NCBI GenBank assembly: GCA_028717525.1
Contig: JAQUNT010000042.1
Coordinates: 1 to 10,102 of the forward strand
Length of the DNA stretch: 10,102 nucleotides
Source of the DNA: Elusimicrobiota bacterium
GTDB lineage: Bacteria; Elusimicrobiota; Elusimicrobia; UBA1565; UBA9628
Direction: 5' to 3'
Of this stretch, positions 178 to 9,714 are shown piece by piece; the first letter of the stretch is position 1; each line of letters begins with the position of its first letter. The position numbers and the translations under genes are program-made. The notes below the pieces were generated by a model. That model made no database searches, was not told where the DNA came from, and was given only the letters and a program-made list of their open reading frames with translations.

Positions 178-223
178 GGCCCAAGGACCCATGCCGCCCC
201 GGGTCCATGGGCCCTGCTTCTTT
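178..223 (+). terminator. Hairpin terminator after the cytochrome gene
   Basis: Arms at 178-190 (GGCCCAAGGACCC) and 201-213 (GGGTCCATGGGCC) pair over 12 bp with a single A-A mismatch, enclosing a 10-nt loop. The run CTGCTTCTTT follows, a weak T-rich tail. The position 12 nt after the cytochrome stop fits an intrinsic terminator. The arms are also copies of a motif found in the hairpin at 7636-7673, so the element may be a repeat reused as a terminator. It ends just before the -10 box at 237. Confidence 0.6.
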
Positions 224-249
224 GGGTCTAAAGGGCTATAATCATACGA
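221..249 (+). promoter_or_regulatory. Promoter of the ribonuclease-barstar pair
   Basis: A perfect TATAAT -10 box sits at 237-242, placing the likely transcription start near 249, only about 3 nt before the ATG at 252. No TTGACA-like hexamer is seen at the usual 16-18 bp distance. A TTTGGG block lies 10 nt upstream of the -10 box, and a similar GGG block precedes the amylase -10 box by the same distance. No ribosome binding site fits between promoter and start, so the transcript looks leaderless. Confidence 0.6.
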
Positions 250-251
250 CC

Positions 252-851
252 ATGAAGAACTGGATGCGTCGGACTGGTCTTTTGACGGTCGCCGCTGCTT
301 TCGCGCTGGCCGCCGCCGCGCGCGCCGGGGAGTCGGCCCCGGCCAAGAAGGACGCCTCGCCCGCCTTCTCGTCCTTGCTGGAGTCGGCGCCCGCGGACCA
401 GCGCGCCCGCGTCGTCGCGCCGGTGGCCGGCGTCCCGGCCGCCTCCACCAGGGGGGGCCCGGCCTGCGTGCCGTCCCCCAAGCTGGCTCCCGGACAGGGC
501 TTCTCTCCGCAGGTCAACGAGCCGGTGCGCTTCGCCGCCATCACGGACCTGCTCGACCGCATCGCCGCCTGCAAACCCCTGCCCTATGCCCATGACGGCA
601 TCGTCAACAACAACCGGGAAGGCCTCCTGCCCCAGCGGCCGACCGGCTACTACCTCGAGTACACCTTGAAGGTCCCCGGCCGTCAGACCGGGGACGGCCC
701 GGTGCCCGTGGACATCGGCGGCAAGATCTACATGACCGGCAAGATGCTCAGCGCCCGGGGCCCGGAGCGCATCATCGTGGGCGGCCACGAGCGCGTCTAC
801 TACACGCCCGACCACTACAAGACCTTCATCGAGCTGGTTATCGTCCGCTGA
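252..851 (+). CDS. Exported guanyl-specific ribonuclease (barnase/RNase Sa/T1-type)
   Basis: A 199-residue protein with an N-terminal signal peptide: Lys/Arg at 2-7, hydrophobic Ala/Leu core at 9-23, likely cleavage after ARA at about residue 25. Residues 26-90 are a Pro/Ala-rich linker of no recognised fold. The ribonuclease domain covers about 95-199, with the family pattern HDGIVNNNREGLLP at 114-127, GYYLEYT at 132-138, RIIVGG at 173-178 and YYTPDHYKTF at 183-192. By comparison with RNase Sa, the catalytic residues are Glu136, Arg169 (with Arg173) and His188, all present, so the enzyme should cleave RNA after G. Cys72 and Cys107 could form a disulfide. Odd feature: Glu136 and Arg169 are 33 residues apart, against 11 in RNase Sa, so the loop 144-168 carries an insertion of about 22 residues. 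The start at 252 was chosen because an in-frame ATG at 207 lies upstream of the -10 box. A barstar-like gene follows with no gap. Confidence 0.88.
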   Translation: MKNWMRRTGLLTVAAAFALAAAARAGESAPAKKDASPAFSSLLESAPADQRARVVAPVAGVPAASTRGGPACVPSPKLAPGQGFSPQVNEPVRFAAITDLLDRIAACKPLPYAHDGIVNNNREGLLPQRPTGYYLEYTLKVPGRQTGDGPVPVDIGGKIYMTGKMLSARGPERIIVGGHERVYYTPDHYKTFIELVIVR

Positions 852-1265
852 ATGCCGGACGACTCCTTCCTGGCGGCCGCGGACCCGCCGCACCTGGCCG
901 ACCTGGACGCCGCGGAGGCGGCCGAGCTGCGGCTGCGGGCGGCGGCCCTGGGCTTCGCGGTCTTCGAGCTCGACGCCGCGCGCATGCAGACCAAGCCCGA
1001 ACTCATGGACCAACTGGCCGAGGCCCTGAAGTTCCCCGGCGACTTCGGCCGGAACTGGGACGCGACCGTGGACTGCCTGGGCGACCTGGCCGGCATCCAC
1101 GGCGGGAAGAAGTTCCTCGTCGTGGTCAAGGACCCCGCGGCCCTGGAGCGCGCCGATCCCCGCCTCTACGCCGACTTCCGCGAGGTCTGCGGCCTGGCCT
1201 GCGAGAACGCCCGGCAATGGAGCGGCGGCTCGGTCCGGCTGAAGTTCGCCTTCGCCGCCTCCTGA
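852..1265 (+). CDS. Barstar-family ribonuclease inhibitor
   Basis: A 137-residue protein without signal peptide or membrane segment, so cytoplasmic. The core barstar signature is at about 59-77: LKFPGDFGRNWDATVDCLGDL-like, with Asp70 and Asp74 matching the two aspartates (Asp35 and Asp39 of Bacillus barstar) that enter the ribonuclease active site; the Trp38 position is Val73. A hydrophobic beta strand FLVVV follows at 88-92, as in the family. It is longer than the 90-residue Bacillus protein because of an acidic Ala-rich N-terminal extension of about 25 residues. Its ATG immediately follows the TGA of the ribonuclease (TGAATG) and no Shine-Dalgarno is evident, so translation is probably coupled. 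The likely role is to block any ribonuclease that folds in the cytoplasm before export. Barstar-family proteins without a cognate RNase exist, but the pairing here makes the partner clear. Confidence 0.88.
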   Translation: MPDDSFLAAADPPHLADLDAAEAAELRLRAAALGFAVFELDAARMQTKPELMDQLAEALKFPGDFGRNWDATVDCLGDLAGIHGGKKFLVVVKDPAALERADPRLYADFREVCGLACENARQWSGGSVRLKFAFAAS

Positions 1266-1386: not shown

Positions 1387-2247
1387 CTAAGGCTCGAGCG
1401 TCGTCCCCTCGGTCGCCCCGAAGCAGTCGACCGCTCCGCCGGCCTTGCGGATCCGGCGCCGACAGTTCTCCACCTGCCGGTCGAGGTCGTCGTCCGTCCG
1501 ATCCGGGTCGTGATGGAAAAGCCCCAGCCGCTTGACCCCGGCGGCCAAGGCGAGGTCCACCGCGTCGTTGAAGGTGGAATGCCCCCAGCCCCGGGTCAGC
1601 CGATATTCCGCGTCCGTGTACTGAGCGTCATGGATGAGCAGGTCCGCGCCGCGGCAAAGATCCGCGTACTGCGCGGGCGTCAGCCCGCCCTCGTGCCGGA
1701 AGCCGAGCTCGTTGTCGGTGAGGAAGACGAAGCTCCTTCCCCTTTCCGTGAATTTGAAGCCGTAGCCGCCGTTGGGGTGGTTCAGCGCGATGGGGGCGAC
1801 CTCCAGCCCGTCCCAACGGCACGGCCCCGAGCACGGGCGCATGCCGTCGCGCTGGCAGGCGAAGTCGAACTTGGCCTTCAAAACGGAGAATTCGACGGGG
1901 AAGAACGGCGCCGTCATCTGGCGGCTGAGATACCTCTTGATGGAGTCCTGGGCATGGACGCCTCCGCAGAAGGTCAAAGAGAAGCGCTCCAGATAGGCCG
2001 GCTCGAAGAAAGGGAACCCGGACAGATGGTCCAGGTGGGCATGGGTGATGAAGAAACGCAGCTCCGACACCCCTGGCTCGCGGCGCAAGGCTTTGCCGAG
2101 GAACCGCAGTCCCGAGCCCGCGTCGACGATGACGATGCGGCCCTTCTTGGTCCTCATCTCGAGGCAGGTGGTGTTGCCCCCGTAGCGCAGCGTGGCGGGC
2201 CCGGGCGAGGCGATGGACCCTCGGCAACCCCATAGCTTGATCTGCAT
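1387..2247 (-). CDS. Metallo-beta-lactamase-fold hydrolase, last gene of the haem operon
   Basis: A 286-residue soluble protein. The MBL metal motif is THAHLDH at 68-74 (His69, His71, Asp73, His74), and further candidate metal ligands are His156 (NHP), Asp178 (LTDNE), Asp207 (HDAQY) and His223 (GWGHST). The N-terminus LWGCRGSIASPGPATLRYGGNT (5-26) matches a widespread MBL subfamily related to RNase Z/PqqB/class II cyclic-nucleotide phosphodiesterase-like enzymes. The substrate cannot be told from sequence; a phosphodiester is plausible. The ATG is 6 nt after the hemC stop; GAGG lies only 2 nt before it, so translation is likely coupled to hemC. Whether it has a role in haem metabolism is unknown. 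Confidence 0.85.
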   Translation of the reverse strand: MQIKLWGCRGSIASPGPATLRYGGNTTCLEMRTKKGRIVIVDAGSGLRFLGKALRREPGVSELRFFITHAHLDHLSGFPFFEPAYLERFSLTFCGGVHAQDSIKRYLSRQMTAPFFPVEFSVLKAKFDFACQRDGMRPCSGPCRWDGLEVAPIALNHPNGGYGFKFTERGRSFVFLTDNELGFRHEGGLTPAQYADLCRGADLLIHDAQYTDAEYRLTRGWGHSTFNDAVDLALAAGVKRLGLFHHDPDRTDDDLDRQVENCRRRIRKAGGAVDCFGATEGTTLEP

Positions 2248-2253
2248 ATCCTC

Positions 2254-3156
2254 TTACCCCCGGCTTCGGACCCGCCCGGCCAGGTTCCGGACGAACTCCT
2301 CGGCGCGAGCCAGATCCTCGCACGCCTCATGGAGCCGCACGGCCCGCGAGCCGTCAGGTTCGGAATAGAAGACGCAGAGCTCGGCACCCGCGCCGCGCAG
2401 CCTGGCCCGCGCCGCCAGCGGCACCGAGCAGCCGCCGCCCAGCTCCTTGAGGAAGGCCCGCTCGAGCTCGACCTCGGCGCGCGTGCGCCGGTCGTCGAGC
2501 TTGGCCAGCAGTCCCACCACCTCCGGGCGGTCCTGCCGCGCCTCCAGGGCCAGAGCTCCCTGACCCGGAGCCGGCAGAAGCAGCTCCTCGGGGAGCGCCT
2601 CGTGCGCGACCGCGGCCAAGCCCACCCTGCGCAGGCCCGCCCCGGCCAGGACCAAAGCGTCGCAGACGCCCTGCTCCAGCTTGCGCAGGCGCGTGTCCAC
2701 GTTGCCGCGCATGGGCAGCATCTTCAGCCCCGGCTTGGCCGCCAGGAGCTGGACCTGCCTGCGCAAGGACGAAGTCCCGATCCGCGTCCCGTCTCCGGCG
2801 GAGGCCCAGCCCAAGCCGGCCCGGCCGATGAACACGTCGCGCGGGTCCTCGCGCTCCGGATAGGCCGCGACGGCGAGCCCGGCCCTGAGCTCTGCGGGCA
2901 GGTCCTTGGCGCTGTGCACGGCGAAATCGATGCTCCCCGCCAGCAGCGCTTCCTCGATCTCCTTGATGAAGAGCCCCTTGGTCCCGGACGAGGCCGCGGC
3001 CGCGGCCGGGCTCTGGATGGAGAAGCGGTCGCCGCTGGTCTGGATGCGCACCGTCTCCACTTCCAGCCCCGGGTGCAGCCGCATCAGCGCCGCGGCGGTC
3101 TGCCCGGACTGGGCCAGGGCCAAGGCCGAGCCCCGGGTCCCCATGCGCAATCTCAT
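2254..3156 (-). CDS. hemC: Hydroxymethylbilane synthase (porphobilinogen deaminase)
   Basis: A 300-residue cytoplasmic enzyme, of normal length, that polymerises four porphobilinogens into hydroxymethylbilane. Family landmarks: MGTRGSALALAQS at 5-17; HSAKDLP at 81-87 with catalytic Asp85; YPEREDPRDVF at 99-109; IGTSSLRRQVQL at 127-137; MRGNVDTRLRKL at 149-160; and GGGCSVPL at 240-247, with Cys243 holding the dipyrromethane cofactor. The start at 3156 was chosen because a good AGGAGG lies 5 nt upstream and the protein then begins at the conserved N-terminus. An Ala/Ser-rich stretch (PAAAAASSG, 50-58) lengthens the usually flexible active-site loop before KGLF. hemD, which should use its product, is not in the window. 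The gene sits between hemY (10-nt gap) and the MBL hydrolase (6-nt gap). Confidence 0.97.
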   Translation of the reverse strand: MRLRMGTRGSALALAQSGQTAAALMRLHPGLEVETVRIQTSGDRFSIQSPAAAAASSGTKGLFIKEIEEALLAGSIDFAVHSAKDLPAELRAGLAVAAYPEREDPRDVFIGRAGLGWASAGDGTRIGTSSLRRQVQLLAAKPGLKMLPMRGNVDTRLRKLEQGVCDALVLAGAGLRRVGLAAVAHEALPEELLLPAPGQGALALEARQDRPEVVGLLAKLDDRRTRAEVELERAFLKELGGGCSVPLAARARLRGAGAELCVFYSEPDGSRAVRLHEACEDLARAEEFVRNLAGRVRSRG

Positions 3157-3161
3157 AAGCC

Positions 3162-3167
3162 CCTCCT
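3162..3167 (-). promoter_or_regulatory. Ribosome binding site of hemC
   Basis: AGGAGG on the minus strand, 5 nt before the hemC ATG at 3156. Its first A is the last base of the hemY TGA stop, so ribosomes finishing hemY are delivered onto the hemC site. It is the strongest Shine-Dalgarno in the window and fixes the hemC start. Confidence 0.8.
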
Positions 3168-4549
3168 CATGATGCCGCCAAAGCCTTGAGCAGGCGCTGC
3201 GCGGCCAGCTTCGACTGCAGGACGCAGTCGTTGAGCGAGACGCCCCGATAGGCGTTGCTGTCGAGCTCCAGCCCGGGCAGGGCTTCCAGGCGCCTGGCGA
3301 TGCGCTCCAGCCTGGCCCCGTGCCCCTTGAGGTACTGCGGGATGCCGCGCTCATGGAAGAAGACCCGCTCCAGCGCCGGCTGCGCGGACAGGCCCATCAG
3401 GTCCTTGAGCTCGCCGCGCACCATGGCCAGCAGCTCCGCCTGCGGCAGGCGCGCCAGCTCCGGCTGGCGCGCGCCGCCCACCATGACCCGGATCAGGGCC
3501 TGGCCTTGCGGGGCCCGGTTGGGGAACACGCTCGAGTCCCACAGGGCGCCCAGGATCTTCCGCCCCTCCAGCCTCGGCACCAAGAAGCCGAAGCCGTCGA
3601 GCGGCCGGCCCAAGTCCGCGGCCGCGTAGCCCAAGGCGGCCACGGCGACCGGGGCGTAAGGGATGCCCGAGAGCTCGACGGCCAGCTCCTGGTCCAGGCC
3701 GCGCAGCATGGCCGCGGCCGCGTAGGCCGGAGCCGCGACCACCACCGCGTCGAAATCGCTCTCCGCACGCGCCCCGGCGGACTTGACCGCCACCCGGAAC
3801 TTCGCGCCCGCCCGGGACACAGCCTCGACCTCGGCCCCCAGGCGCAGCTCCTTGGCCAGGCTCCCGGCCAGCACCTCCACCAAGGCCTGCGCCCCGGTGT
3901 CGAAGGAGGTGAGGACCCCGCCCGGCCCGGCCGACATCTCGGCCCGGGCGCCTTGGCGGAACCTCTCCCAGCGCAGAAGGAGCATGGCCCTGACCAGGCC
4001 CCCGTAGCGCTGCTCCAGCTCGCGGATGCGCGGGAAGCATGAGGCCAAGGAGAGCTGGTCGGGATCTCCGGCGAAGACCCCGGCGGTCATGGGCTCGATG
4101 AGCTTCTCCATGGCCTCCGGCCCCAGGCGCCGGCGCGCGAAGCCGGCCACGGACTCGTCTTCACCCCCCCGCCGCGGCGCGATGAAAGGCTCGGCCAGGA
4201 CCCGCAGGCGGCCCGCCGCGCTGAGCAGGCCGGAAGCCAGGAACTGCCCGGGGGTCTCGGGCAGGCGGTGCAGCCGGCCTCCGGAACAGACGAAGCGCTT
4301 GCGCGCCAGGTCCGAGGAGCGCAGCAGGCGCGCCTCGATGCCCAGTTCCCGGGCCAGCTCCAGGGACCAGGGCTTGTTGGTCAGGAAACCGTTGGGGCCC
4401 CATTCCATGATGAAGCCCTGCTCCCGGCAGGTGCGCATGGTGCCGCCGGGCGAGCTCCGCGCCTCGAAGATGACGGTCTCCGCCGCGCGGCGCAGATGAT
4501 GGGCCGCGGTCAGGCCCGATATGCCGCCGCCCAGGACCGCGATCCTCAT
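3167..4549 (-). CDS. hemY: FAD-dependent porphyrinogen oxidase (protoporphyrinogen/coproporphyrinogen III oxidase, HemY/CgoX)
   Basis: A 460-residue flavoprotein that takes six electrons from a porphyrinogen ring. The N-terminal FAD-binding fold shows VLGGGISGL at 5-13, Glu29 for the ribose, and the family motif EWGPNGFL at 49-56. The C-terminal FAD motif is AYRGVSLNDCV at 433-443. The length fits the HemY family; no transmembrane helix is evident. The same fold serves as protoporphyrinogen IX oxidase (PgoX) in the classical pathway and as coproporphyrinogen III oxidase (CgoX) in the coproporphyrin-dependent pathway. I cannot tell these apart by eye, and the choice matters for reading the operon. 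Its ATG overlaps the hemH TGA (ATGA, 4546-4549). Alternative names are hemG and cgoX. Confidence 0.93.
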   Translation of the reverse strand: MRIAVLGGGISGLTAAHHLRRAAETVIFEARSSPGGTMRTCREQGFIMEWGPNGFLTNKPWSLELARELGIEARLLRSSDLARKRFVCSGGRLHRLPETPGQFLASGLLSAAGRLRVLAEPFIAPRRGGEDESVAGFARRRLGPEAMEKLIEPMTAGVFAGDPDQLSLASCFPRIRELEQRYGGLVRAMLLLRWERFRQGARAEMSAGPGGVLTSFDTGAQALVEVLAGSLAKELRLGAEVEAVSRAGAKFRVAVKSAGARAESDFDAVVVAAPAYAAAAMLRGLDQELAVELSGIPYAPVAVAALGYAAADLGRPLDGFGFLVPRLEGRKILGALWDSSVFPNRAPQGQALIRVMVGGARQPELARLPQAELLAMVRGELKDLMGLSAQPALERVFFHERGIPQYLKGHGARLERIARRLEALPGLELDSNAYRGVSLNDCVLQSKLAAQRLLKALAAS

Positions 4550-5505
4550 GCGGTCTTCAGCGCGGAGAGAGCCAGATCCTTGAGCGCGGCGATGAAGCCC
4601 GGCGAGTCGTTGAGCGCCGGCACGCGCAGGAAGGCCTTGATCCCCGCCGCCTCGGCGGCGGCGCGCAGCTCGATGTCGAGGTCGTAGAGGGTCTCGGAGT
4701 TGTCGCAGACGAAGCTCAGCGGGACCACCACCGCGGCCTGCACCCCGACCCGGCCCAGGCGCGCGAGCTCCTCCGCGGTGTCCGGCCCCAGCCAGCGGCC
4801 GCGGCCGGTCCGGCTCTGGAAGGCCAAGGAGCTGGGCGTGTCCGGGAAGAGCCGGCCCAGGGCCTCGGCCGTGAGCCGGACCTCGTTCAAGTAGGGGTCT
4901 CCGGCGTCGATGAAGGACTGGGGCACGCCGTGGGCGCTGAAAAGAAGATGGGTCCTGCGGCCCGCGGCCTTGGCCAAGGCCCCGGCCGTCAGCTCGGCCA
5001 GGGCCGCGAGGTAGCCGGGGTGCTGCGGCCAGGAACGCAGCTCCTTGAGCGGGATGCCGGCCTCGGCCTCCTGCAGGCCGCGGCGCAGGTCGTGCAGGCT
5101 CGAGCCCGTGGTGGCGCGGCAGTACTGCGGGTAGAGGGGCAGGGCCACGGCCTGGTCCACGCCTTCCGCCGTCATGCGCGCCGCCGCGTCGCGGGCCGAG
5201 GGCCGGCCGTAGCGCATGGCCGCGTAGACGCGGAAATCCCCGGCGCCGTGCAGGGCTTCCTTGAGCCGCGCCCTCTGCTGGTAGGTCAGGCGCACCAAGG
5301 GCGAGCCCCCGCCGATGGCGGCCAGCCTGCGGCGCAGGCCGGCCTGGCGCAGGCCGGATACGGCCCAGGCGAAGAGGGGCTGGAGGGAAGGCACGGGAAA
5401 GGGCACCAGGTCCCGGTCGGCCAGCAGCTGGCGCAGGAAAGGACGGACCTGGTCGAGGCTCTCCGGCTCGCCCATGGTGAGCAGCACGACCCCCACGCGC
5501 GCCAT
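4546..5505 (-). CDS. hemH: Ferrochelatase (protoporphyrin or coproporphyrin ferrochelatase)
   Basis: A 319-residue enzyme that inserts Fe(II) into the porphyrin. Landmarks: LLTMGEPESL at 8-17; LPLYPQYCRATTGSS at 122-136; FSAHGVPQSF at 189-198 with catalytic His192; FQSRTG at 229-234; and CDNSETLYDLDIE at 267-279 with Glu271. There is no C-terminal membrane anchor and no Cys set for a [2Fe-2S] cluster at the C-terminus, so it is a compact soluble form. At the position where Bacillus coproporphyrin ferrochelatase has the iron-ligating Tyr13 (AYGTP) this protein has Met11 (TMGEP), as in many protoporphyrin ferrochelatases. Its ATG lies 3 nt after the hemE stop, and its stop overlaps the hemY start. 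Confidence 0.96.
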   Translation of the reverse strand: MARVGVVLLTMGEPESLDQVRPFLRQLLADRDLVPFPVPSLQPLFAWAVSGLRQAGLRRRLAAIGGGSPLVRLTYQQRARLKEALHGAGDFRVYAAMRYGRPSARDAAARMTAEGVDQAVALPLYPQYCRATTGSSLHDLRRGLQEAEAGIPLKELRSWPQHPGYLAALAELTAGALAKAAGRRTHLLFSAHGVPQSFIDAGDPYLNEVRLTAEALGRLFPDTPSSLAFQSRTGRGRWLGPDTAEELARLGRVGVQAAVVVPLSFVCDNSETLYDLDIELRAAAEAAGIKAFLRVPALNDSPGFIAALKDLALSALKTA

Positions 5506-5508
5506 GGC

Positions 5509-6540
5509 CTAGCCTTGGCGCCCCAGGCGGTGCACGGCCTCGACCAAAGCCCGGGCCGCCTCCGGGTCGGTGCGGGGCAGGATGCCGTGGCCCAGGTTGA
5601 AGATGTGTCCCCCCGCCTGGCGGCCGCGCTCCAGGACCTCCTTGGCCGCGTCCGCCACCTCGCCGGCGGGCCTGAGCAGGACCTCCGGGTCGAGGTTGCC
5701 CTGCAGCACGAAGCCCGGCCCCGCGAGGCGCGCGGCTTCGTCGAGAGGGACGCGCTGGTCTATGGAAAGCACGTCCACGGGGAGCTCCCTGAGGACCGGC
5801 AGGAGCCTGCGGCAGTCCGCCGTAAAATGGATGACCGGCACCCGGCGCAGGCGCACGGCCTGCGCCACGCGGAACGTATGCGGCAGCACCTGCCTGCGGT
5901 ACTGCTCCGGCTCCAGGATCCCGGCCCAGGTGTCGAAGAGCTGGATGGCCTGGGCCCCGGCCGAGATCTGGGCCCCGGCATACGCGACGGTGGTGTCCGT
6001 GAGCTTGTCCATCAGCACGGCGAAAGCTCCGGGATCGTCCTGCATCAGCGAGCGCAGGGCGGCGAAGTCCCGCGACTTGCCGCCCTCCACGATGTAGCTG
6101 GCCAAGGTGAAGGGCAGGCCGGAGAAGCCGATGAGCGGCACCCGGCCGGCCAGCTCCCGGCGCAGCACGCGCACCGCGTCGAGCACGAAGCCGAGGTCCC
6201 GGACCGGGTCCGGCACGCGCAGGGCCTCGATGGCGGAGCGGTCCCGCGCGCCCCGGCCCAGGATGGGGCCTCGGCCTTCGTGGAACTCCAGGGGCACGCC
6301 CATGGCCTCCACCGGGATCAGGATGTCGGAGAAGAGGATGGCGGCGTCCACGCCCAGGCGCGCGACCGGCTGGATGGTCACCTGCGCGGCCAGCTCCGGC
6401 GTCTTGCAGACGGTGAGGAAGTCGTGCTTGCGGCGCACCTCCATATACTCGGGGAGGTAGCGGCCCGCCTGGCGCATGATCCAGACCGGGACGGTGTCTA
6501 CGGGCTGCTTGCGGCAGGCCCTGAGGAAACGGTCGTTCAT
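5509..6540 (-). CDS. hemE: Uroporphyrinogen III decarboxylase
   Basis: A 343-residue cytoplasmic enzyme, normal in length, that removes four acetate carboxyls from uroporphyrinogen III to give coproporphyrinogen III. Signature 1, [10 protein letters not shown], is at 18-27; the catalytic Asp is Asp72 in LFSDIL; signature 2, [16 protein letters not shown], is at 138-153; GNLDPEVLL and [15 protein letters not shown] motifs follow near the C-terminus. The start at 6540 was chosen because the family begins with NDRFLRA and because this ATG overlaps the TGA of the upstream radical SAM gene as ATGA, with GAGG a few bases upstream. An in-frame ATG at 6567 would add nine poorly conserved residues. 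The product is the branch point for the protoporphyrin and coproporphyrin routes. Confidence 0.97.
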
Positions 6541-7598
6541 CTCATCCTCAGAGGGATGTAGCTGCACATGGGCTCTTCAGCCAGGAAGTCCCCGCTCATG
6601 AGCTCGGCCCGGGCCCGGCAGCCGCCGCAGACCTTGAGGTACTCGCAGGAGCCGCAGCGGCCCTTGTAGCCCTTGAAGTCGCGCAGGGAGCGGAACAGCT
6701 CCGAGTCCGTCCAGATCTCCCGGAAAGGCTTCTCCTTCACGTTGCCCGCGGCGCGCGGGAAGTAGGAGCAGGGCTGCACGTTGCCCAGGCGGTCGATGAA
6801 GGCTATGCTCTGGGCGCAGACGCAGCCCTTGGCCCCGCCGGTGGAGAAGGTCAGCGAGCGCCTCTGGTAGCCGGTGTCTCCGGCCTTGGACTTCTGCGCG
6901 ATGACCCGGTAGTAGTGGGGGGCGCAGGTCGGCCGCATCAGCATCGCGGTCTCGTCCTTCTCGGCTTGGTAGTGCCAGTCGAGGATCTTCTCGTAGTCCT
7001 CCTTGGAGATGAGTTCGCCGAGGATGTCCTGGCCGCGGCCCGCGGGCACCACCATGAACAGGTACCAGGCCTTGGCCCCGACGGACTTGGCCAGGCGGCA
7101 GACCGCGCCGATGTCCGCCTGGTTGCGCTTGGTGAAGGAGGAGTTGACGATGAACTCGACGCCGGCTTTACGGAAAGCCTCGGCCGCCTTCATGGTGCCG
7201 GCGAAGGCGCCCTTCTGCCGGCGGAAGTCGTCATGGACCTCGGGCGTGGCCCCGTCGAGGGAGAGCGAGACGATGCGGATCCCGGAGTCCTTGATCCGGG
7301 AGCAGACCTCGTCCGTCACCAAGGTGCCGTTGGTGGCCAAGGCCATCTTGAGGCCTTGGTCCGTGCCCAGGCGCGCCAGCTCGAAGAGGTCCGGCCGCAG
7401 CAGGGGCTCGCCGCCGGAGAGCACCAGGACCGGCTTGCAGAAGGAGGCGATGTCCAGGATGAGGGCCTTGGCCTCGGCCGTGGTGAAGTCGGGGCCGGCC
7501 GCGTTGGAGCCGGAGCGGCAATGCACGCAGTCCAGGTTGCAGCGGCCCGTGACCTCCCAGGCCAGCCACTTCGGGATGAACTCGGCACCCCCTCTCAC
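6537..7598 (-). CDS. Radical SAM/SPASM protein, AhbC/AhbD/NirJ-like (tetrapyrrole side-chain processing)
   Basis: A 353-residue iron-sulfur protein. The radical SAM cluster motif is CNLDCVHC at 20-27 (Cys20, Cys24, Cys27) and the SAM-binding SGGEP is at 61-65. A C-terminal SPASM-type region holds Cys259, Cys261, Cys277 ([10 protein letters not shown]), Cys315, Cys318, Cys324, Cys327 ([16 protein letters not shown]) and Cys345 (EEPMC). PTCAPHYYR at 223-231, the GxVQPC motif and the C-terminal Cys cluster are typical of the haem-synthesis group AhbC, AhbD and NirJ. AhbD decarboxylates Fe-coproporphyrin III to haem b; AhbC acts on didecarboxysirohaem; NirJ makes haem d1. Subfamily assignment by eye is unsafe, but the ATGA overlap with hemE and the presence of hemY and hemH favour an AhbD-like role. 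The start is GTG at 7598, which coincides with the predicted transcription start; no ribosome binding site precedes it. Confidence 0.85.
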
Positions 7599-7716: not shown

Positions 7717-9714
7717 ATGCTGACCCCCGCCCTGCTGTCCTTGGCGCCGCTGTTCGCGGCTCCGCTCCATGCCCAGACCCCGGCCTTGGCCCAGGCCGCG
7801 GCCCTGGTGGAGGACCTCGGCAGCGCAAGGAACGCCCCCTCCATGGCTCCAGCCCTCAAGCGCTTCTACGACGGCGCCCCGCGCAACGTCATCCCGGTCC
7901 GCGCCGATACCGGCGGGGCGCGCTCCCGGCAGCTGCGCTCTTTGCTGAGCCTGGGCACCATGAAGTCCGACGGGAGCATGATCGGGCCTTTCGTCTTCCG
8001 GCCGGCCGGCGGCGGGGCCTATACCGCTCCCGCCGCCGGCCTGGAAGGCTTCGTCTATGGCGAGGGCCAGGCGCGGGCGGGCGGCAGCGCGGACTCCATC
8101 CGCCACCACCTGCGGGACTACGGCCGCTATCTCGAGGACCTGCTCGCGCCGGTGCCTTGGGCCGCGGAGGCCCGCCGGCACGTCAAGGACCTGCTCTCCG
8201 GCCCGGGCTCGGACGCGGTTAAGTACGACCAGCTCATGGCCTTCGTGCGGCAGTACACCGAGACCCTGCGCGCGCAGGTCGCGGCCTCGGACCAGAGCCA
8301 GTGGGTGCGCCAGGCCCGCATCTACGAGATCTTCCCCCGCGCCTACAACCTGGCGGGCAAGCGCGCGGCCATGGGCCGGCCCGCCGGGGCCGGAGCGCCC
8401 TTTTTCGCCGACTTCGGGACCCAGGACCTGCGCGACATCCAGGGCCTGGGCTTCGACACCCTCTGGGTGATGGGCATCTTCCCGATCGGCCGGCGCAACC
8501 AGTCCGGCACGGGCGGCGGCTCGCCCTACTCGATCCAGGACCACGAGTCCTTGAACCCGGAGCTGGGCACGCCGGAGGATTTCCGCGGCTTCGTGGCGCG
8601 CGCCCACGCCCTGGGCCTGAAGGTCATCATCGACTTCGTGCCCAACCACACCGCCATGGACTCCAAGCTGATCGAAAGCCACCCGGAGTATTTCCTGCAC
8701 AGCGACTCCCAGCCTGCCGGCGAGGGCTGGTTCGCCGCGGGCCCCAGGTGGATCCGCCACGGGGGCTTCAGCGTGTTCGGCAGCGTGTCCTTCTGGAAGG
8801 ACACGGCCCAGGTGGACTACTCCAACGAGAGCCTGCGCCGCGAGCTGGTGCGCATCGAGCGCTCCTGGGTGGAGCGTTTCGGCGTGGACGGCTTCCGGGT
8901 GGACATGGCCTACCTCGACCTCAACGCCAACTTCTCGCGCACCTGGGGGGTGTCCATGCCGCCGCGCGAGTTCATGGAGATGCTCATCACCGCGGTCAAG
9001 GCCGCCTACCCCGCGACCGCGTTCATCGCCGAAAGCTACGACAACTGGGACGAGCTCTCCGCCTGCGGCTTCGACCTGGTCTACGGCAAAAACGACATGG
9101 GCCGGCCGGGCGGGCACACGGGCTGGTACGACGCGGTGCAGAGCCGCGACCCGGGCCGCATCCGCGCGGCGCTGGCGCGCGTGGAGTACCTGCAGTGGCA
9201 GAAGGGCGGCTCGGACATGCTGGACTTCATCGGCAACCACGACGAGCCTTCCCCGGCGCGCGCCTTCGGGCCCTGGATGCGGGGGGCGTCCTTGCTGTCC
9301 TTGCTCCTGCCCGGAGCGCAGCTCTTCTACGGCTCGCAGGAGATCGGCTTCGACGCGGGCGGAGGGCCGGGGGCGGAGCCCAAGTCCATCCCCTTCGACG
9401 TGCCCGTGCAGGTGGACTGGAAGGCCGCCGATGCCGCGGCGGCGCGCTTCTACCAGGACACCTTCCGCGCGGCCGCGGCCGTGCGCGCCCGCCTGCGCAA
9501 CCCCTCGCTCAAGGCCTTGAGCCCGCAGGGCGAGCCGGCCTGGGTGGGCTACGCCTTGGTGGCCGCGGACGCGCAGAAGCCCGGGGCCCTGGTGCTGGCC
9601 AACCCCACGGACCGGACCGTGGCCGTGGACTTCCACGACCCCCGCCTGGACACCGGCTGGACCGGGACCTTGCCCGCCTACGGCTACGCGGTGGTCGAGC
9701 CCTCGTCCCCCTGA
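7717..9714 (+). CDS. Exported GH13 (alpha-amylase family) glycoside hydrolase
   Basis: A 665-residue protein. Residues 1-19 form a hydrophobic signal-like segment ending in LHA, followed by Gln; it lacks the usual positive charge near the start. Residues 20-195 match nothing I recognise. The GH13 barrel runs from about 200 (RIYEIFPRAYN) to 545: DLRDIQGLGFDTLWVMGIFP at 237-256, region I DFVPNH at 306-311, region II GFRVD at 392-396 with nucleophile Asp396, region III acid/base Glu439 in FIAES, and region IV FIGNHDE at 504-510 with Asp509. All three catalytic acids are present, so it should be active on alpha-glucans or related alpha-glucosides outside the cytoplasm; exact specificity is not readable. 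About 570-665 looks like the C-terminal beta domain typical of the family. It is transcribed alone, divergently from the haem operon. Its last 31 bases overlap the reverse-strand gene ending at 9684. Confidence 0.93.
   Translation: MLTPALLSLAPLFAAPLHAQTPALAQAAALVEDLGSARNAPSMAPALKRFYDGAPRNVIPVRADTGGARSRQLRSLLSLGTMKSDGSMIGPFVFRPAGGGAYTAPAAGLEGFVYGEGQARAGGSADSIRHHLRDYGRYLEDLLAPVPWAAEARRHVKDLLSGPGSDAVKYDQLMAFVRQYTETLRAQVAASDQSQWVRQARIYEIFPRAYNLAGKRAAMGRPAGAGAPFFADFGTQDLRDIQGLGFDTLWVMGIFPIGRRNQSGTGGGSPYSIQDHESLNPELGTPEDFRGFVARAHALGLKVIIDFVPNHTAMDSKLIESHPEYFLHSDSQPAGEGWFAAGPRWIRHGGFSVFGSVSFWKDTAQVDYSNESLRRELVRIERSWVERFGVDGFRVDMAYLDLNANFSRTWGVSMPPREFMEMLITAVKAAYPATAFIAESYDNWDELSACGFDLVYGKNDMGRPGGHTGWYDAVQSRDPGRIRAALARVEYLQWQKGGSDMLDFIGNHDEPSPARAFGPWMRGASLLSLLLPGAQLFYGSQEIGFDAGGGPGAEPKSIPFDVPVQVDWKAADAAAARFYQDTFRAAAAVRARLRNPSLKALSPQGEPAWVGYALVAADAQKPGALVLANPTDRTVAVDFHDPRLDTGWTGTLPAYGYAVVEPSSP

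Follow-up and report, generated by a model that had tools for sequence, protein, structure and literature searches.

How would haem be completed by an operon that carries hemE, hemH and hemY and no gene for ChdC, HemF or HemN? The question is raised by a stretch of 10,102 nucleotides (nt) that makes up one contig (JAQUNT010000042.1; here, the window) of an Elusimicrobiota metagenome-assembled genome (MAG; GCA_028717525.1, our G000; 3.02 Mb, 562 contigs, 79.4% complete). The first-pass annotation had described one tight minus-strand operon of six genes joined by ATGA overlaps or gaps of 3 to 10 nt. We found the same operon, with each gene where it had been placed. A radical S-adenosylmethionine (SAM) gene is followed by hemE, hemH, hemY, hemC and a gene for a metallo-β-lactamase (MBL)-fold hydrolase. 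ATGA overlaps join the radical SAM gene to hemE (ATG at 6540) and hemH to hemY. The gaps are 3 nt between hemE and hemH, 10 nt between hemY and hemC (ATG at 3156), and 6 nt between hemC and the MBL gene. The features are as follows, in amino acids (aa) where lengths are given.

6537..7598, minus strand: AhbD-like radical SAM/SPASM protein, 353 aa, GTG start, first gene of the operon (TIGR04545, 419.9 bits; own 100/100 clade)
7518..7541, minus strand: its radical SAM CX3CX2C motif (C20, C24, C27), from a cysteine reading of the protein
6564..6926, minus strand: its full SPASM motif, C225-X33-C259-X17-C277-X37-C315-X2-C318-X5-C324-X2-C327-X17-C345
5509..6540, minus strand: hemE, uroporphyrinogen decarboxylase, 343 aa (TIGR01464, 396 bits, cut-off 303; start taken from the ATGA overlap)
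4546..5505, minus strand: hemH, ferrochelatase, apparently of protoporphyrin (PpfC) type (NCBIfam, 283 bits, cut-off 125)
5314..5472, minus strand: HemH residues 12-64, containing the long active-site lip, with R53 in line with human R115
3167..4549, minus strand: hemY, FAD porphyrinogen oxidase, apparently of protoporphyrinogen (PgoX) type by its place in a tree (TIGR00562, 293 bits, cut-off 98)
2254..3156, minus strand: hemC, hydroxymethylbilane synthase (TIGR00212, 295 bits, cut-off 164; GAGGAGG upstream of the start)
1387..2247, minus strand: MBL-fold hydrolase, 6 nt past hemC (PF12706, 57.7 bits)

We propose that this operon encodes an oxygen-independent protoporphyrin route in which the AhbD-like radical SAM protein takes HemN's step. 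We consider this probable, and the substrate of the radical SAM protein is the part that we infer. According to this model, HemE would yield coproporphyrinogen III, and the AhbD-like protein would convert the ring A and ring B propionates to vinyls, giving protoporphyrinogen IX (the HemN/HemF step). HemY would then oxidise protoporphyrinogen IX to protoporphyrin IX, and HemH would insert iron to give haem. The proposal is built on computation: which genes are present and in what order, the absence of matches to the usual enzymes, a HemH and HemY of protoporphyrin type, and AhbD-like iron-sulfur motifs. Since HemH and HemY appear suited to protoporphyrin(ogen) IX, no known maker that we searched for was found, and the radical SAM partner has relatives that turn propionates into vinyls, HemE, radical SAM protein, HemY and HemH would act in that order, with HemY presumably using an acceptor other than oxygen. 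The first-pass annotation had also proposed an oxygen-independent decarboxylation by the radical SAM protein. We retain that step but would place it right after HemE.

The radical SAM protein

The best NCBIfam match of the window's radical SAM protein is AhbD (TIGR04545), at 419.9 bits and under the curated cut-off of 500. It scored 294 bits against NirJ2 and 203 bits each against NirJ and AhbC, and HemN (TIGR00538) is not among the 25 families listed of the 73 that it matched. Earlier it had been called AhbC/AhbD/NirJ-like; the AhbD part of that name stands, and NirJ or AhbC identity was ruled out by these scores. Proteins of two Elusimicrobia MAGs are 87-89% identical to it, so its host probably belongs to Elusimicrobia as well. 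We counted radical SAM proteins as operon-type when at least 55% identical. The highest TIGR04545 score of any of them is 454.8 bits, also below the cut-off. No match over 500 was found in 57 relatives or in the 46 genomes of the class of G085, 37 of which have a TIGR04545 match at 415-455 bits.

The CX3CX2C motif and eight-cysteine SPASM pattern of the window protein agree with the full AhbD cysteine motif, which passages of PMC10452713 give for the AhbD of methanogens and sulfate reducers. We found this full motif in 66 of 70 operon-type rows, a few of them copies, after excluding eight fragments of 153 aa or less. The misses are L029 and L030 (at the ends of contigs), L031 (in two frames) and L015 (match ending at residue 338). 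The motif is not exclusive to the operon type: of the 24 rows below 55% identity, 12 also match it, against 0 of 2 rows each for TIGR04053 and NirJ.

The 83 rows of our radical SAM tree were all at least 300 aa long and included six of the 30 loci from L119 to L148, plus 10 out of 240 database proteins; none was an AhbC or a characterised AhbD. The 45 operon-type rows group together behind a 100/100 branch with a long stem (1.14), apart from L032, the TIGR04053 and NirJ rows, and a second AhbD-like group from Elusimicrobia. The tree placement suggested by the first-pass annotation thus sets the protein apart from NirJ (two rows, 100/100); AhbC was judged by profile score only. A clade of its own on a long stem leaves room for a new substrate; it is compatible with a changed substrate and is no demonstration of one. 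One database source labels many operon-type proteins "heme b synthase." The second group (L038, L042-L044, L046-L051 and L053-L057) is 38-43% identical, scores 338-420 bits to TIGR04545, and occurs also in genomes that have no ferrochelatase match (G011, G019, G026 and G028).

HemH, HemY and the missing haem genes

For the HemH lip, we counted the residues that separate the column of human M76 from that of GGxSP; 63 HemH rows were measured, after 33 loci with a partial HemH (under 290 aa) had been excluded. The stretch is 53 residues long in the window HemH and 53-54 in all 26 operon-type rows (23 distinct). Eight protoporphyrin references have 50-55 residues: human, Escherichia coli, five other Proteobacteria, and G049, the sole relative with a true HemN. 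Another 29 rows have exactly 37: Bacillus subtilis, Staphylococcus, Lactococcus, Lactiplantibacillus, Streptomyces, Deinococcus, Chlorohelix and 22 class relatives. Those Proteobacteria use the protoporphyrin route, and those Firmicutes use the coproporphyrin route. The HemHs from five of six genomes with strong ChdC matches, all five counted in the 22 class relatives, are short-lipped (L082, L086, L089, L090 and L103; the sixth, G051, is outside the sample). The M76 column holds Y, F or H in the 29 short rows and M or L in the 34 long ones. As described in passages of PMC9133952, a lip insertion of 12 residues is present in human PpfC and missing from Gram-positive CpfC, and its absence lets CpfC bind coproporphyrin. 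The same source has R115 of the human enzyme binding propionate 7; R53, in line with it, is nearly invariant among 19 operon HemHs. The HemH tree put the operon rows with the protoporphyrin references, opposite the coproporphyrin type across a 100/99 branch. On sequence grounds, the operon HemH appears to be of protoporphyrin (PpfC) type.

HemY pointed the same way. The window HemY scored 337 bits against the Myxococcus xanthus chain in the PDB versus 212 bits for that of B. subtilis. By PDB chain scores, both operon enzymes are nearer protoporphyrin-type enzymes, and the opposite was found for one strong-ChdC relative. A 100/100 branch of the HemY tree separates the coproporphyrin type from the operon rows and the protoporphyrin references. 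The operon HemY thus appears to be of protoporphyrinogen (PgoX) type and not to belong to the CgoX group. We also considered the insert of about eight residues in CgoX-type HemY as a marker. It is absent from M. xanthus and from the window, yet human HemY has a similar length in that region; the insert is not a clean marker, so the typing relies on the tree. An oxygen-free HemY is in itself no problem, since Staphylococcus aureus CgoX is reported, in passages of PMC12670364, to be active without oxygen too. As leads only, passages in the literature put a hemY of Geobacter metallireducens and G. sulfurreducens at 38% identity to the M. xanthus gene, and what is called hemN in G. lovleyi at just 27% identity to Salmonella hemN.

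The first-pass annotation had found no ChdC, HemF or HemN in the operon, and this extends to the genome and its six genus mates. The genome search that it had suggested found ChdC, HemF, AhbAB and HemN over its cut-off in 0/7 genomes of the genus (G000-G006), all seven of which have a ferrochelatase. We rejected MAG incompleteness as the cause, because the same pattern is seen in G003 (99% complete), G001 (97%), G004 (93%) and G005 (92%). Among the 57 relatives, HemF and AhbAB (PF17805) were found in none and HemN over its cut-off in one (G049). PF06778 (ChdC) matched in 41 of 57, strongly (187-202 bits) in six. The weak PF06778 matches of about 47-51 bits cover mostly the C-terminal half only and occur in family f1 genomes that have no ferrochelatase match (e.g., G007-G015); these proteins are probably not ChdC. 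Four genomes (G030, G039, G043 and G044) have a ferrochelatase and no PF06778 match.

A similar search covered the 30 genomes, of unstated completeness, behind loci L003-L032, of which all except the archaeal G086 carry an operon-type radical SAM gene. We found ChdC in 0, HemF in one (G068), HemN in two (G068 and G081) and AhbAB in one (G086). None of the four was found in 27 of the 30, that is, in 27 of the 29 carriers, which include G062, a single 2.3-Mb chromosome, and G075, the cultured isolate Malonomonas rubra DSM 5091. A tblastn search with the window proteins for AhbC/AhbD beside AhbAB, on a 19-kb stretch of G086, gave no match. L032, also of G086, scores 411 bits to TIGR04545, yet 388 to TIGR04053, so its sequence makes it only a possible sirohaem-route AhbD.

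Conservation and neighbours of the operon

We counted hemE within 500 nt of an operon-type radical SAM gene, at loci where 800 nt or more lie downstream. hemE follows in 20/23, 8/8 and 27/28 loci of three locus sets, and hemH comes next in 18/23, 8/8 and 22/28. hemY then stands in 13 of the 23 longer loci; the two sets of about 4 kb are too short for hemY. The 23 loci were drawn from 31 operon-type loci among 34, and the other eight had less room, with hemE still visible in three. The 8-locus set includes the window's own copy, and some loci duplicate one contig (L001/L035 and L002/L037). Chance pairing of the radical SAM gene with hemE is rejected by this conservation. The gene order spans Elusimicrobia, "Deltaproteobacteria," Desulfuromonadaceae, Malonomonas, a Nitrospira MAG, Deferribacteres and two archaeal MAGs; MAG names and binning may err. 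We concluded that the operon is real and conserved and that its radical SAM protein is probably misnamed rather than there by chance.

hemE does not follow, with room for it, at L010, L014, L027 and L146. At L010, hemY and hemH adjoin the radical SAM gene on the opposite strand. L014 lies on a contig of 5.7 kb, which could be a stray. A scan of some genes beside L014, L021, L026 and L027 found no further haem genes. The two archaeal MAGs (L016 and L030) have the bacterial radical SAM-hemE-hemH-hemY operon and no AhbAB match, as a result of either gene transfer or a binning error.

The only hemC found beyond the window's own lies in L002, whose contig, from G003, recurs as L165. This is the sole relative contig that extends beyond hemC, and it has no MBL hydrolase there. 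The MBL hydrolase is probably co-transcribed with the operon of the window, and it is outside the conserved haem operon. Window positions 207-1265 (plus strand) hold a ribonuclease/inhibitor pair: a Barnase-like ribonuclease (PF00545, 43.7 bits) and, immediately after it, barstar (PF01337, 71.1 bits). A similar pair lies in G003 about 9 kb beyond hemC (L165, 9832-10520). A GH13 alpha-amylase-like protein at 7717-9714 (plus strand) is divergent from the operon and adjoins the radical SAM gene in several genus members (L001, L036 and L040).

Alternative readings and implications

The first-pass annotation had the radical SAM protein replacing ChdC at the end of a coproporphyrin-dependent branch, with HemY as CgoX and HemH as CpfC after HemE and with AhbD finishing the route. 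We regard this as possible but doubtful. AhbD is the protein's best family and its cysteine motif is the full AhbD motif, known AhbD acts on Fe-coproporphyrin III, and passages of reviews permit AhbD as the last enzyme (PMC7242693 and PMC12670364). Part of PMC10548856 also cites ahbD next to hemY/hemH/hemQ (citing Dailey 2015). However, the operon HemH has the lip, 53 residues in our measure, that is said to exclude coproporphyrin, both enzymes (HemH and HemY) group with the protoporphyrin references in their trees, and no AhbD match over 500 was found among the 57 and 46 genomes. With HemH and HemY apparently of protoporphyrin type and ChdC-bearing relatives, where compared, of the opposite type, the radical SAM protein would replace HemN or HemF rather than ChdC. 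The general statement that a coproporphyrin route can end with AhbD is already in print, in passages of Bryant 2020 (PMC7242693) and of a 2025 Chem Rev article (PMC12670364).

A different HemN-superfamily protein (HemW-like or STM4012-like) might perform HemN's step while the radical SAM protein acts elsewhere. Such proteins are present in G003 (five), G000 (four) and G062 (three), and HemW was found in G000 (225 bits, cut-off 205). We scanned six of them (three of G003, two of G000, one of G062); all are HemW-like or STM4012-like and scored 104-159 bits versus the HemN cut-off of 325, also under the HemZ cut-off. With the radical SAM-hemE pairing kept across phyla as well, we think this improbable. 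Least credible to us is a place between HemY and HemH, where the protein would turn metal-free coproporphyrin III into protoporphyrin IX. This would agree with a protoporphyrin-type HemH, but HemY appears to be of protoporphyrinogen type, and known AhbD handles coproporphyrin III very poorly (passages of PMC11306076).

Several points weigh against placing the AhbD-like protein at HemN's step. The chief objection is the need of known AhbD for iron in its substrate: according to passages of PMC11306076, characterised AhbD uses Fe-coproporphyrin III, the iron-free and Zn forms are very poor substrates, and iron is thought to participate in the reaction. All eight SPASM cysteines of the window protein match characterised AhbD, so AhbD is its simplest name. 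L014 (G068) and L027 (G081) carry operon-type radical SAM genes in genomes that have HemN. The human Y123 position is a leucine in the window HemH. G030 has a short-lip HemH (L091) and no PF06778 match, so short lip and ChdC are not always paired. To our knowledge, no operon-type HemH or HemY has been assayed, and the lip and the trees rest on homology.

Among known systems, AhbD (TIGR04545) is the nearest family, with the same CX3CX2C and eight-cysteine SPASM motifs and, as proposed here, the same conversion of two propionates to vinyls. Unlike AhbD, the operon proteins fall under the curated cut-off and form a separate clade in a tree without characterised AhbD. Unlike the sirohaem route, the genus genomes lack AhbAB, and the operon protein stands with hemE, a putative protoporphyrin-type hemH and hemY. 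HemN/CgdH (TIGR00538) would share its step and its oxygen-free radical SAM chemistry, but the operon protein is from another radical SAM branch and has a SPASM domain. ChdC/HemQ also converts the propionates of rings A and B to vinyls. It is of the chlorite-dismutase family, is peroxide dependent and acts on Fe-coproporphyrin. It had no match in the genus or the 30 locus genomes. CgoN (YtpQ), which a partial source describes as an oxygen-independent coproporphyrinogen III oxidase, is another recent oxygen-independent stand-in for a haem enzyme, at a different step and from a different protein family.

We think the chances somewhat better than even that an AhbD-family protein was recruited as a second, unrelated oxygen-independent coproporphyrinogen III dehydrogenase, replacing HemN in several groups of bacteria and in some archaeal MAGs. 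Our literature search, of titles, abstract openings and passages, with some subscription papers beyond reach, found no claim of an AhbD-like enzyme replacing HemN. If true, one radical SAM scaffold would handle flat porphyrins that contain iron as well as flexible porphyrinogens without a metal, a test of AhbD's real need for iron. It would also explain haem synthesis in genomes that have ferrochelatase but lack HemN, HemF and ChdC. The haem genes of many anaerobes would then have been misread, and theirs would be a complete protoporphyrin route with a HemN substitute, neither broken nor coproporphyrin dependent.

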